Assembly (NCBI RefSeq): GCF_016863135.1
Contig: NZ_BOOH01000024.1
Coordinates: forward strand, 1-49,386
DNA: 49,386 nt
Direction: 5' to 3'
DNA from: Planobispora longispora
GTDB taxonomy: Bacteria > Actinomycetota > Actinomycetes > Streptosporangiales > Streptosporangiaceae
The notes under the pieces were generated by a model, which was not told the DNA's origin, made no database searches, and saw only the letters and a list, made by a program, of their open reading frames with translations. Shown in pieces: positions 7,330-10,956 of this stretch; the first letter of the stretch is position 1, and each line of letters begins with the position of its first letter. The position numbers and the translations under genes were made by a program.

Positions 7330-7692
7330 TCAGCCGCGCCGCCTCCTGCGCCTCTTGACGGTCATCCGCACGATCGCGCGGGCGGTGAGCAGCAGGATGA
7401 CGCCCACGATCTGGCCGCCCAGGACGATCCGGTTGACGTCGACCGCGGGCTGCCAGCGGACGTCGCCGTCCTTGATGACGAACACCCCGGCCGGGGTCGC
7501 GCTGAGGCCGTACCCTCCGCCGGCCCCCTCCCCGGCCTTCTCGCCCTCCTGCTTGCCCCTGCCGCCGCCCCCGCCGCTGGCGATCTTGGCGACCGGTACG
7601 ACCGTCACTCCCTCACGGGTGATCGGCTCGCCGAAGACGCGGCTGACGGTGGCGTTGTCCTTCGCCTGATCGATCACATCCATGATGTCCAT
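7330..7692 (-). CDS. GerW/YtfJ-family sporulation-type protein
   Basis: Encodes 120 residues. The N-terminal half (DVIDQAKDNATVSRVFGEPI, then GVTVVPVAKIASGGGGG) matches the YtfJ/GerW pattern of a beta-rich domain with a Gly-rich loop. GYGLSATPAGVFVIKDGDVRW is the second conserved block. A predicted transmembrane helix at about residues 88-105 and an Arg/Lys-rich tail follow, so this version is probably membrane-anchored with its tail inside. In Bacillus the family is linked to spore germination; the actinomycete role is unknown. It is monocistronic with about 150 nt to the next gene. Confidence 0.75.
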   Translation of the reverse strand: MDIMDVIDQAKDNATVSRVFGEPITREGVTVVPVAKIASGGGGGRGKQEGEKAGEGAGGGYGLSATPAGVFVIKDGDVRWQPAVDVNRIVLGGQIVGVILLLTARAIVRMTVKRRRRRRG

Positions 7693-7846: not shown

Positions 7847-8305
7847 TCAGGAGGCCACGACCAGCGCCTGCGGGGCGGCCTGCTTCATCCGGGCGCCCAG
7901 CCACTCCATCTGCGCGGCGGTCTCGCCCTCGCAGCGGCGGACGACCTCGAGGAGCCCGGTGTCCCTGGCTCCCTGCGCGGCCTGCCCGATCAGCGTCCAG
8001 GCCATGTCGCACTCGGCGGCCATGAGGTACAGGTCGTGCAGGTCGCGCAGGAGGCCGACGGGGCCGGAGCGGGTTCCGGAGAAGAGGGTCGAGTGCAGCC
8101 GCTCGGGCTCGTCCACGGCCTCCTCCGAGTAGCGCTGGACGAACGGCTCCAGAAGCCGGGCGTGCTCGGTGCACTGCACGGCCAGCCGCTCGCAGATGTG
8201 GTGGATGTCGGGCTCGTCGTCATGAGCCCGTCCCACCTCGCAGAAAGCGCCGGCCAGCTCGTTCTGCGAGCGGTGCAGCAGCCCCAGGTAGTGGGCCAGG
8301 TGCAT
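7847..8305 (-). CDS. Small all-helical partner of the Mo oxidoreductase
   Basis: Encodes 152 residues starting two bases after the stop of the upstream molybdopterin oxidoreductase gene (TGA-CC-ATG), so the two are translationally coupled. The sequence reads as four amphipathic helices (about 1-27, 32-59, 83-113, 117-143) rich in His, Glu and Cys (H2, H5, H11, E16, H35, H36, C38, E39, C45, E47, H48, E98, C125, E126). It resembles a ferritin-like or hemerythrin-like four-helix bundle, but no strict ExxH pair or canonical hemerythrin motif is present, so no metal site can be claimed. An electron-transfer, chaperone or maturation role for the neighbouring enzyme is inferred only from the operon. 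Confidence 0.65.
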   Translation of the reverse strand: MHLAHYLGLLHRSQNELAGAFCEVGRAHDDEPDIHHICERLAVQCTEHARLLEPFVQRYSEEAVDEPERLHSTLFSGTRSGPVGLLRDLHDLYLMAAECDMAWTLIGQAAQGARDTGLLEVVRRCEGETAAQMEWLGARMKQAAPQALVVAS

Positions 8306-8307
8306 GG

Positions 8308-10956
8308 TCAGTCCTCCTCGAACCACCGTGACGTCTCGAACTTCTCCGGCGAACCGGACCGGTCCCGGGGCCGGTCCCCGGTCCCGGCCGTTCCCGAATA
8401 CTCCCCGGCCCCGGACCCGGCCCACTCCGTGTGCTCGTCCGCCTCGGTCCACTCCCGCGCCTCGGCCTCCGGCCCGCCGGCCGTGACGGGCACCCGCGGG
8501 TCGTGCGGGGAGGCGGCGCCGGTGGTGGGCGCGGCGGAGAGCACGCCCAGGGCGTCGGCCGCCTTGCTCACCCGGACCGCCGCGACCTTGTAGTACGGCT
8601 GCTTGGACACCGGGTCCCAGCCGGTGGCGGTCAGCTCGTTGGCGGCGCGCGGAACCCCGTCGCCGGGGCCGGAGTCCCCGCGGTCCCAGTAGCCGTAGTG
8701 GAACGGGACGAACACCACCCCCGGCCGGGTCCCGCACACCCGCGCCCGGGCCTCCAGCGTCCCCCGGGGCGACTCGACGCGCACCACGTCGCCCTCGGCC
8801 ACGCCCAGCGCGGAGGCGTCGCCCGGGCTGAGCTCCACCCACGGGTCCGGCGCGGCGGCGTTCAACTGGGCGGCCCGGCCGGTCTTGGTGCGGGTGTGGA
8901 AGTGGTAGACGGTGCGGCCGGTGGTCAGCAGCATCGGGTGGTCCCCGCCCGCGGTCTCGGGCGGCGGCTCGTACGGCGCCGCGTGCAGGAAGGCCCGCCC
9001 CCGGGGCTCCTTGGCGCGGTACCGCTCCTCGGTGTGCTCGGCGCCGGTGAGCAGGTCCTGGCCGTAGGTCTCGCAGTAGTCCGGGTCGGTGTTGAACCGT
9101 CCCCCGGCGTACAGGCGCTCGGTCCCGTGCCGCGCCCCCGGCGCGCAGGGCCACTGGACGCCTCCGCCGCGCAGCATGCCGTACGTGATGCCGGTGTAGT
9201 CGCACGGGCGCCCCGCCGAGCAGGCCTTCCACGCCTCGAACGCCGACTCCGGGTCGTGCCACTTGATCAGCGGCGCCCCGTCCTTGTCGCGGAAGTCCAT
9301 CCGGCGCGCGTAGTCGAGGAAGATGTCCAGGTCGGAGCGGGCCTCCCCGGGCGGATCGACCGCCTTCCCGGAGAGGTGGACCGTGCGGTCGGCGTTGGTG
9401 AACGTCCCCTCCTTCTCCCCCCAGGTGGCGGCGGGCAGGACCACGTCGGCCAGCCGGGCCGTCTCGGTCAGGAAGATGTCCTGGACGACCACGAACAGGT
9501 CCTCCCCGGCCAGGATGCGGCGGATCCGGGCCAGGTCGGGCAGGGAGACCGCCGGGTTGGTCGCCGAGATCCACAGCAGCTTGACCGAGCCCTGCTCGGC
9601 GTAGCGGAAGATCTGCATGGCGTGGGTCGGCGGCGCCCAGTGCGGGATGACCGAGGGCTCGACGTTCCACAGCCCGGCCAGCTCGCGGATGTGTTCGGGG
9701 TTGTTCCAGTTGCGCATGCCCGGCAGGTCGCCGTCGGCCCCGGCCTCGCGGGTGTTCTGCGCGGTGGGCTGGCCGTTCATCTGCAGCACGCCCGCGCCCG
9801 GGCGGCCGAGCATGCCGCGCAGCAGGTGGATGTTGTTGACCTGGCAGGCCGCGGCGGTCGCCTGGTGCGACTGGTAGAACCCCTGGAGCACGGTCGAGAG
9901 CAGGCGCTCCGAGGACCCGATGATCTCCGCGGCCCGCTCGATCGCGCTCGCGGGCACGTCGCAGATCTCCGCGGCCCACCGGGGCGTGCGGTCCGCCACG
10001 ACCTTCCGGAGCTCCTCGAACCCGATCGTGCGGGCCCGGACGTACCTCTCGTCGTACCAGCCCTCGTCGATCAGCACGTGGATCAGGGCGTTCATCAGCG
10101 CCAGGTTCGTGCCGGGCCGTACGGCCAGGTGCACGTCGGCCTCCCGCGCGACCGGCGTCTCCCGCGGATCGACGACGATCATCGCCGGGGGCCGCGGCCC
10201 GTGGCGGCGGTCGAGCATCCGCGCCCACAGCACCGTCTGCGTCTCGGCCACGTTGTGCCCCCACAGCGCGATCGCGTCGCAGTGGTCGACGTCGGCGTAG
10301 GAGCCGGGCTGCCCGTCGGTGCCGAAGCTCAGTTTGAGCGCGGCGGCGGACGTCGCCGTGCACAGGCGCGTGTTGCCGTCCATGTGGGGCGTGCCGATGC
10401 CCGCCTTGCCGATCACGCCGAGCGTGTAGCACTCCTCCAGGAACAGCTGGCCGCTGGTGTAGAACGCGAGGTTCCCCCACCCTCCCGGGCCGTCGAGCAG
10501 CGCCTTCGAGCGCGACACGATCAGGTCCATCGCGGTGTCCCAGTCGGTCTCGGCCAGCTCGCCGCCGCAGCCGCGGATCAGGGGGCGGGTCAGCCGGTCG
10601 GGGCTGGCGTTGGCCTGCCAGCCGTACAGGTCCTTGGGGCCGAGCCGCCCGTGGTTGACGCGGTCGTCGGCCCGGCCGCGCACGCCCACGATGCGGCCGC
10701 CGGAGACCGCGATGTCCATCGCGTCGCCGTTGGAGTGCAGGATCGAGGCGGACGGCACCCACGCGTCGACGTCGTCCTCGGTGACCCCCTCGGCCAGGAA
10801 GGCGTCCACCCGGACCGGCCAGGGGCTGCGCCGGCCGAAGTCGCCGGGCAGGAAGTCCTTGAGGCGGCCGGGCAGGGCCGCGGCGAGCCGTTCCACGGTC
10901 GCGGGCGGGCCGTACGGCGTGCGGCTCCCCCACGGGTCGGCGATCCGGTCGGACAT
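8308..10956 (-). CDS. Molybdopterin oxidoreductase lacking the [4Fe-4S] cysteines
   Basis: Encodes 882 residues of the bis-MGD oxidoreductase superfamily, closest in layout to NapA/formate-dehydrogenase-type catalytic subunits. Recognisable blocks are GRIVGVRGRADDRVNHGRL (N-terminal domain), FYTSGQLFLEE, NTRLCTAT with Cys199 at the NapA Mo-ligand position, ALWGHNVAETQ, QMNGQPTAQNTRE, LFLTETARLADVVLPA, and a C-terminal MGD-binding domain (LLTTGRTVYHFHTRTKTG). The usual Cys-x2-Cys-x3-Cys-x27-Cys cluster is replaced by Ser71, His74, Asp78 and Gly106 at exactly the expected spacing. No Tat signal is seen, so it is probably cytoplasmic. The last 110 residues are an acidic, low-complexity tail. It is cotranscribed with the helical protein downstream. 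Substrate unknown. Confidence 0.85.
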   Translation of the reverse strand: MSDRIADPWGSRTPYGPPATVERLAAALPGRLKDFLPGDFGRRSPWPVRVDAFLAEGVTEDDVDAWVPSASILHSNGDAMDIAVSGGRIVGVRGRADDRVNHGRLGPKDLYGWQANASPDRLTRPLIRGCGGELAETDWDTAMDLIVSRSKALLDGPGGWGNLAFYTSGQLFLEECYTLGVIGKAGIGTPHMDGNTRLCTATSAAALKLSFGTDGQPGSYADVDHCDAIALWGHNVAETQTVLWARMLDRRHGPRPPAMIVVDPRETPVAREADVHLAVRPGTNLALMNALIHVLIDEGWYDERYVRARTIGFEELRKVVADRTPRWAAEICDVPASAIERAAEIIGSSERLLSTVLQGFYQSHQATAAACQVNNIHLLRGMLGRPGAGVLQMNGQPTAQNTREAGADGDLPGMRNWNNPEHIRELAGLWNVEPSVIPHWAPPTHAMQIFRYAEQGSVKLLWISATNPAVSLPDLARIRRILAGEDLFVVVQDIFLTETARLADVVLPAATWGEKEGTFTNADRTVHLSGKAVDPPGEARSDLDIFLDYARRMDFRDKDGAPLIKWHDPESAFEAWKACSAGRPCDYTGITYGMLRGGGVQWPCAPGARHGTERLYAGGRFNTDPDYCETYGQDLLTGAEHTEERYRAKEPRGRAFLHAAPYEPPPETAGGDHPMLLTTGRTVYHFHTRTKTGRAAQLNAAAPDPWVELSPGDASALGVAEGDVVRVESPRGTLEARARVCGTRPGVVFVPFHYGYWDRGDSGPGDGVPRAANELTATGWDPVSKQPYYKVAAVRVSKAADALGVLSAAPTTGAASPHDPRVPVTAGGPEAEAREWTEADEHTEWAGSGAGEYSGTAGTGDRPRDRSGSPEKFETSRWFEED

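Follow-up and report, generated by a model that had tools for sequence, protein, structure and literature searches.

Can an enzyme of the dimethyl sulfoxide (DMSO) reductase, or MopB, superfamily keep the cysteine that ligates its molybdenum (Mo) and yet dispense with the neighbouring iron-sulfur (Fe-S) cluster? In cluster-bearing members of the superfamily, this proximal cluster is usually seen as the point of electron exit or entry. The question is raised by a molybdopterin oxidoreductase gene of Planobispora longispora, located in a 49,386-nucleotide stretch of DNA (contig NZ_BOOH01000024.1, positions 1 to 49,386; hereafter the window), in which a first-pass annotation had noticed that all four cluster ligands are replaced. 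Comparing the encoded protein (P0001) with its relatives, we found that the cluster loss, as far as sequences can tell, is not random: a defined new residue set, His74/Asp78/Asp109, characterizes the altered site, and this is the most telling result of the analysis. The group to which the protein belongs is, judged by its residues alone, a variant of nitrate-reductase-like Mo enzyme that has kept the Cys Mo ligand and lost the cluster ligands.

Ligand loss at the former Fe-S site

Firstly, we assigned the window protein to its superfamily. The open reading frame (ORF) is open from start to stop codon (Table 1), and Pfam detects both Molybdopterin (PF00384, 188.7 bits) and Molydop_binding (PF01568, 103.8 bits) above their cut-offs. 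The closest PDB sequence match by phmmer is NapA of D. desulfuricans (2jim, 369 bits). An AlphaFold2 (AF2) model, with a mean predicted local distance difference test (pLDDT) score of 86.3, found its best Foldseek match in NapA 2v45 (E 7e-65; target-normalised template-modelling (TM) score 0.92), and formate dehydrogenase (FDH) was matched too. By Pfam and Foldseek, the protein has the fold with which the superfamily binds the Mo or tungsten bis-pyranopterin guanine dinucleotide cofactor. The N-terminal Fe-S motif that is usual, if not universal, in the superfamily is absent (0/4 cysteines), and Molybdop_Fe4S4 (PF04879) scores 14.8 bits, below its cut-off of 22.7. The protein is no standard family member, since its NCBIfam scores all fall short: NasC 385 of 1100 bits, NasA 357 of 1000 and NapA 306 of 904 (equivalog cut-offs), Fdh-alpha 455 of the 666 bits needed, TorA 79.3 of 1465 and the bisC family 118 of 1018. 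No twin-arginine signal was seen in it by eye, no signal-peptide program having been used.

Secondly, we collected relatives from three sources. A set of 100 relative genomes, the window's own included, gave 20 loci of at least 57% identity (its own and 19 others, three of them congeneric). A scan of named genomes gave at least 557 confirmed stretches, of which the best 80, those nearest to the query, were used, so that class proportions among them differ from those in nature. Of 341 genomes searched in the window's taxonomic family, 84 also hold the gene (E ≤ 1e-150), none with two full copies (G172 has two matches abutting on one contig), and 70 further loci were taken from these. The site is readable in 169 of the resulting 170 loci, which include the window's own and some duplicates. 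The 174 classed sequences comprise 106 that lack the cluster ligands and keep Cys199 (termed cluster-free, the window's included), 36 with three of the Cys, 24 degenerate and 8 outgroup sequences. Left out of the class counts were L110 (N-terminus cut off), L187 (two frames), L156 (equal to L106) and L075 (equal to L014). The eighth outgroup row, L028, was excluded from the trees and from the definition of the conserved core, which consists of 95 positions defined on the three-Cys and four-Cys sequences, 91 of them outside positions 71, 74, 78 and 109.

The phmmer alignment to 2jim places S71, H74, D78 and G106 exactly on the cysteines of the NapA motif CxxCxxxC...C and K108 on the NapA Lys, in agreement with the earlier reading that Ser, His, Asp and Gly replace the four cluster Cys at exact spacing. 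The trait is conserved as a group: none of the 106 distinct cluster-free sequences has a Cys at any of the four positions, and a relative with all four Cys, the finding that could have reduced the trait to a peculiarity of one gene, was encountered at 0 of 169 readable loci. In the cluster-free sequences, position 71 is S (77), T (18) or A (11); position 74 is H in 105 and S in one; position 106 is G (66), D (39) or E (1); position 108 is K in 105 and T in one; and positions 78 and 109 are D in 106/106. The three congeners of the window lack the cluster ligands as well, with S-H-D-G in one and S-H-D-D in two. A sequencing or assembly error, or a lone mutant, is ruled out by a loss that is common to 106 distinct sequences.

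Thirdly, we compared the cluster-free with the three-Cys sequences (106 versus 36) column by column over the 882 positions, a position counting as fixed differently when each form conserves its own residue in at least 85% of its sequences. C74H, C78D and G109D are the only such positions. D109 has therefore changed along with H74 and D78, and its NapA equivalent is not a cluster ligand. Seven plasmid members outside this count agree, four having H/D/D and three C/C/G at 74/78/109. We regard the absence of the cluster from the window protein's group as very highly probable.

Table 1. Positions in the window of the oxidoreductase gene, its diagnostic codons and the adjoining partner gene.
Feature	Position	Strand	Basis or remark
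Cluster-free molybdopterin oxidoreductase, 882 aa (P0001)	8308..10956	minus	ORF (ATG at 10956, stop codon 8308-8310), Pfam, NapA alignment, AF2, Foldseek
Former Fe-S site, codons 71-109	10630..10746	minus	NapA alignment and column counts over 174 sequences
S71 codon	10744-10746	minus	
H74 codon	10735-10737	minus	
D78 codon	10723-10725	minus	
G106 codon	10639-10641	minus	
D109 codon	10630-10632	minus	Follows K108
Cys199 codon, predicted Mo ligand (NTRLC)	10360..10362	minus	On Cys of NapA RLCM; Cys in 106/106
Helical partner, 152 aa, four-helix bundle	7847..8305	minus	Begins 2 nt downstream of the oxidoreductase stop codon; AF2 and Foldseek

The Mo pocket, the three-Cys form and the probable order of loss

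We then considered the remainder of the protein. Cys199 aligns with the Mo-ligating Cys of NapA and is kept throughout the cluster-free group, as the first-pass annotation had read it for the window protein. T200, N394, G395, Q396, P397, R403 and E404 are likewise invariant (106/106); T200 and N394 are marks of the family, the outgroups carrying Met or His at 200 and Thr or Arg at 394. At 81 of the 95 core positions, 95% or more of the cluster-free sequences retain the residue; C71, C74, C78, G109 and S729 are the only ones retained in fewer than half. The core residues of fold and active site are thus conserved across a group whose median pairwise identity is 0.70: of the 91 core positions outside the site, 105/106 sequences mismatch at five or fewer, and the window protein at one (D618G). 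Such retention (90/91) rules out simple decay of the window gene. The ratio of nonsynonymous to synonymous substitution (dN/dS) lies at 0.09-0.30 in ten cluster-free pairs outside the window's genus; these and all later dN/dS values come from a simple Nei-Gojobori method on GC-rich genes and are rough.

The nearest Cys-bearing relatives are the three-Cys form, which has CxxCxxxC and, in 36/36 sequences, Gly at the fourth position (106). Its 37 loci share 55-68% identity with the window protein across the tblastn span; the four-Cys outgroups share only 32-38%. It resembles the window protein in its pocket letters and its helical partner and differs in keeping three of the four cluster Cys together with G109. 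Among the best 80 named loci, the 52 cluster-free members are all Actinomycetota, and the 26 three-Cys members divide into 18 Actinomycetota and 8 others (three Bacteroidota, two Pseudomonadota, a Nitrospira (Nitrospirota), a member of the Ktedonobacteria (Chloroflexota) and a Deltaproteobacteria/Myxococcota metagenome-assembled genome (MAG)). Since these sisters already have Gly at 106, the loss probably took two steps, the fourth ligand having gone first and the other three later. We found no characterised three-Cys member. An extra Cys at position 80 (CxxCxxxCxC), present in 16/36 three-Cys forms, might replace Gly106 as the fourth ligand of their cluster.

The number of origins was assessed on trees. 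In a first free tree, which counted L110 (N-terminus missing) as cluster-free, 18 three-Cys sequences lay inside the cluster-free group and the starred branches forced at least three changes; in a second tree, the starred branches forced at least two changes for the cluster-free class. With L110 dropped, a one-origin test did not reject a single origin (approximately unbiased (AU) test, p 0.295; log-likelihood 11.26 lower), and with 173 rows the score of a one-clade tree exceeded that of the quick free tree by 42.47 (p-AU 0.783, no mixture model). We prefer a single origin of the cluster-free form over several independent origins of the His-Asp form, without holding it to be proven.

The helical partner and the genomic context

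The first-pass annotation had coupled the oxidoreductase to the small helical gene that follows it and had proposed that electrons might pass through the product of that gene. The coupling is nearly constant, the partner being present at 90/100 loci and at 69/70 further loci (159/170), beside three-Cys, cluster-free and degenerate forms alike. For the ten loci without an adjacent copy, the matches listed contain no partner elsewhere in the genome, and the same query matched in all 20 control genomes with a close family member; one of the ten (L095) retains a partner remnant, seen by eye. Among 21 candidate fusions, 18 proved to be overlaps in another reading frame; coordinates and tails left three in which the partner is fused in frame to a three-Cys enzyme, from Nitrospira moscoviensis (L092), Dankookia (L105) and a Xanthobacteraceae MAG (L109), which argues that the two proteins form a physical complex.

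The AF2 model of the partner (pLDDT 94.6) has helices at residues 3-27, 34-60, 81-112 and 116-150. In Foldseek, 48 of the 50 matches listed are ferritins or bacterioferritins, the others being YciE (3ogh) and 3hiu; among them, E lies between 0.006 and 0.016, none below 0.001, and TM between 0.57 and 0.75 (query length). The apparent likeness to ferritins is that of a four-helix bundle, whereas no Glu/His diiron ligand set is conserved across 59 aligned partners and no Pfam or NCBIfam model matches the partner above cut-off (the nearest, DUF2383, scores 14 of 30.8 bits). Invariant in the 59 sequences are L89, Q108, W135 and Q146, and nearly so L17, H28, L85, L86, D88, W103, A110, L118, Q132 and L148. 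Since the partner occurs equally with the three-Cys form (29/31 loci) and has no conserved diiron ligand set, a redox relay within it is not supported, and we think it ill suited to provide the alternative path for electrons. As a substitute for the lost cluster itself it is ruled out, because it accompanies the three-Cys form just as faithfully.

The genes around the pair recall nitrate metabolism mainly in three-Cys loci. In Curtobacterium, the three-Cys form has genes of Mo-cofactor synthesis as neighbours: one module (L078) adjoins moeA, moaE, a moaA-like gene and a gene of the ThiF family, and one on a plasmid (L192) adjoins genes for an HPP-family protein, an NTP-transferase and a molybdopterin-binding protein. 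In the Curtobacterium genome G409, the single PF00384 match is at the position of this gene. On a Deinococcus plasmid (L190, three-Cys), the pair is followed by an FNT transporter and an HPP gene. HPP proteins are nitrite carriers. A phmmer search over 173 loci found HPP-like proteins at ten (L190, seven other three-Cys loci and a near-identical cluster-free Micromonospora pair, L032/L074) and FNT-like proteins at three (L190 and the cluster-free L038 and L039). HPP-like genes lie near 7/37 three-Cys loci; a second search found HPP at 3/3 three-Cys and 0/4 cluster-free plasmid loci, and neither HPP nor FNT in the whole window. These neighbours suggest a link with nitrate or nitrite for the three-Cys form, and only weakly for the cluster-free form. 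The automatic label 'nitrate reductase', which PLSDB gives to 12 of 15 plasmid members among the matches listed and also to the three three-Cys plasmids inspected, is unproven. A search for MobA says little, with matches only below the model cut-off in 27/27 genomes, yet with matches in 14/14 controls.

The family occurs on large plasmids, and three actinobacterial ones that carry cluster-free members (L189, L193 and L194) have a MarR-family regulator no more than about 1.5 kb away from the pair. Downstream of the pair in the window, at 7330-7692 on the minus strand, is a gene for a GerW/YtfJ-like sporulation-family protein (Pfam, 38.7 bits); it was seen to adjoin the pair only in the four genomes of the window's genus, the flanks being short at many other loci.

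Electron route and rival explanations

The closest known systems are NapA and NasA/NasC, with which the window protein shares the Cys Mo ligand and the aligned GQP and R-E/D-x-G pocket motifs; from NapA it differs in lacking the cluster Cys and in having T200 for Met and N394 for Thr. FDH of the FdhF type is marked by a His that follows the Mo ligand and by an Arg in the active site. FDH 7bkb has these residues where the window protein has T200 and N394 (T and N in 106/106), so that by these marks the window protein is not of the FdhF type. TorA and BisC are bis(molybdopterin guanine dinucleotide) (bis-MGD) enzymes without an N-terminal cluster. PMC10100899 describes DorA in the same terms and states that this cluster is missing from several superfamily members, so cluster loss as such is already known. 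In DorA and TorA, however, Mo is ligated by Ser, and the window protein has Cys199. According to PMC5123574, the equivalent cluster N7 of the superfamily member NuoG/Nqo3 of complex I is not strictly conserved; NuoG lost the Mo cofactor, whereas the window protein keeps the Mo ligand and lost the cluster ligands. PMC5123574 also describes cluster insertion in NarG as a prerequisite for Mo-cofactor insertion. Within the open-access literature, as far as its texts could be consulted, we found neither a described cluster-free Cys-ligated member nor biochemistry on this form.

The reading that we favour, with confidence only just above even, is an active bis-MGD enzyme without the proximal cluster, probably located in the cytoplasm and belonging to the Nas/Nap/cytoplasmic-Fdh branch of the superfamily. 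In its favour we count the unchanged pocket and core, the three positions fixed differently, the low dN/dS outside the window's genus, the lack of second full copies in the family's genomes and the Mo-cofactor genes beside the three-Cys form in Curtobacterium. Taken alone, activity of the window protein as a bis-MGD enzyme is likely; a nitrate-like substrate with a direct donor is a tentative proposal, somewhat short of even. Mo and bis-MGD would be bound despite the absent cluster, and the chemistry would be that of the three-Cys sister, most likely the reduction of a nitrate-like oxyanion. The cavity left by the cluster, beside K108 and the proximal pterin, would be occupied by a polar network of H74, D78 and D109; electrons would pass straight from some donor to Mo, as in TorA/DorA, and the ferritin-like partner would serve as a structural or maturation subunit rather than as a redox relay. 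The first-pass proposal of a cluster-free, Cys-ligated bis-MGD enzyme with another electron route is retained in so far as the ligands are absent and the Mo-Cys kept, and abandoned in so far as it suggested the helical partner as that route.

Several observations weigh against an active enzyme with a direct donor. A clustering of neighbouring genes, so weak that it placed the partner itself in only 41 of 100 loci, found no conserved electron-donor gene near the pair and no other gene family at more than 20 of these loci. The nitrate-related context is mostly that of the three-Cys form, HPP genes near cluster-free loci being confined to the one Micromonospora pair. One of the 106 cluster-free sequences has 19 core mismatches, and dN/dS is higher in the window's genus (0.52, 0.33, 0.32 and 0.25 in four pairs). 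Relaxed function of the window gene is possible, because of these higher values and because a neighbouring clade is degenerate.

That clade comprises 24 distinct sequences (L141-L160, L018-L020, L106 and L128), among them all 15 found in one genus. In a tree made without the ligand columns, they form one clade, nested in a set of 30 rows of which six, the window's included, are cluster-free (Shimodaira-Hasegawa-like approximate likelihood ratio test 96). Lys108 is kept in 0/24 and Cys199 in 4/24, and 12-35 of the 91 core positions are mismatched; L128 (K108R, Cys kept, 12 core mismatches) looks intermediate. The clade nonetheless keeps the partner, and its dN/dS is well below 1 (0.15-0.30 in fourteen pairs, 0.17 and 0.40 in two more), which suggests that these are probably maintained pseudoenzymes. 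In G008 (L111), an intact partner stands beside a mere N-terminal remnant of the oxidoreductase, and in G060 (L114) stretches are missing from both genes; no oxidoreductase match was seen in the 10 kb around each of the partners of G006 (L112) and G058 (L113). The earlier argument that a conserved fold speaks against decay holds for the window gene, but decay has gone further in the neighbouring clade, and two relatives have a deleted or broken oxidoreductase gene. PMC10100899 counts three occasions on which the Mo cofactor was lost within the superfamily, and the degenerate clade may be another.

These relatives argue for the rival that survives best, in which the window protein performs no redox catalysis and persists as a scaffold, as partner or regulator of the ferritin-like protein. 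The persistence of the partner in G008 points the same way, and Nqo3, FhcB and ActB, described in PMC10100899 as Mo-less members with other roles, provide a precedent. A scaffold would not need the Mo-pocket residues, however, and these are kept in 106/106 cluster-free sequences, unlike in the degenerate clade; we consider this explanation unlikely, if still a serious one.

A second rival holds that the cluster was exchanged for another metal, H74, D78 and D109 (with S/T71 in most sequences and D106 in 39/106) binding one ion of Zn, Fe or Mn, which would maintain the fold or pass electrons on. His with two carboxylates is a common metal-binding set, and the three positions are the sole ones fixed differently (105/106, 106/106 and 106/106) despite a median identity of 0.70. 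A salt-bridge or hydrogen-bond network would equally be expected to be conserved, one member has Ser at 74, and strict conservation is not rare in this protein, 228 of 882 positions being kept in at least 105/106. The metal is improbable in our judgement; slightly less so is the wider proposal of a Cys-ligated bis-MGD enzyme that is intact but for the exchange of its cluster for an H74/D78/D109 site, either a mononuclear metal or else a proton-coupled network. Finally, acetylene hydratase and transhydroxylase are non-redox or substrate-coupled superfamily members, and an active Mo enzyme of that kind, without net redox change, would need no electron relay, in keeping with the failure of the weak clustering to find a conserved redox partner gene nearby, but the tested pocket letters are identical to those of the three-Cys form, which keeps a cluster-like motif, and we give this last rival very little credence.

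In the favoured active enzyme, the cluster site of a large actinobacterial group is replaced by a fixed His and two Asp, and electrons would need a different route. A Cys-ligated, pocket-intact, cluster-less member would be a natural experiment on the electron path and on Mo-cofactor insertion, and since the graded series exists in species alive today, the order in which cofactors were lost can be put to the test. If the exchange for H74/D78/D109 is true, it would add a third way for electrons to enter to the two already known, by the cluster and in the cluster-free Ser enzymes, and living members of the family would form a series that begins with three-Cys forms, passes through His-Asp-Asp forms and ends with those lacking the Mo ligand.

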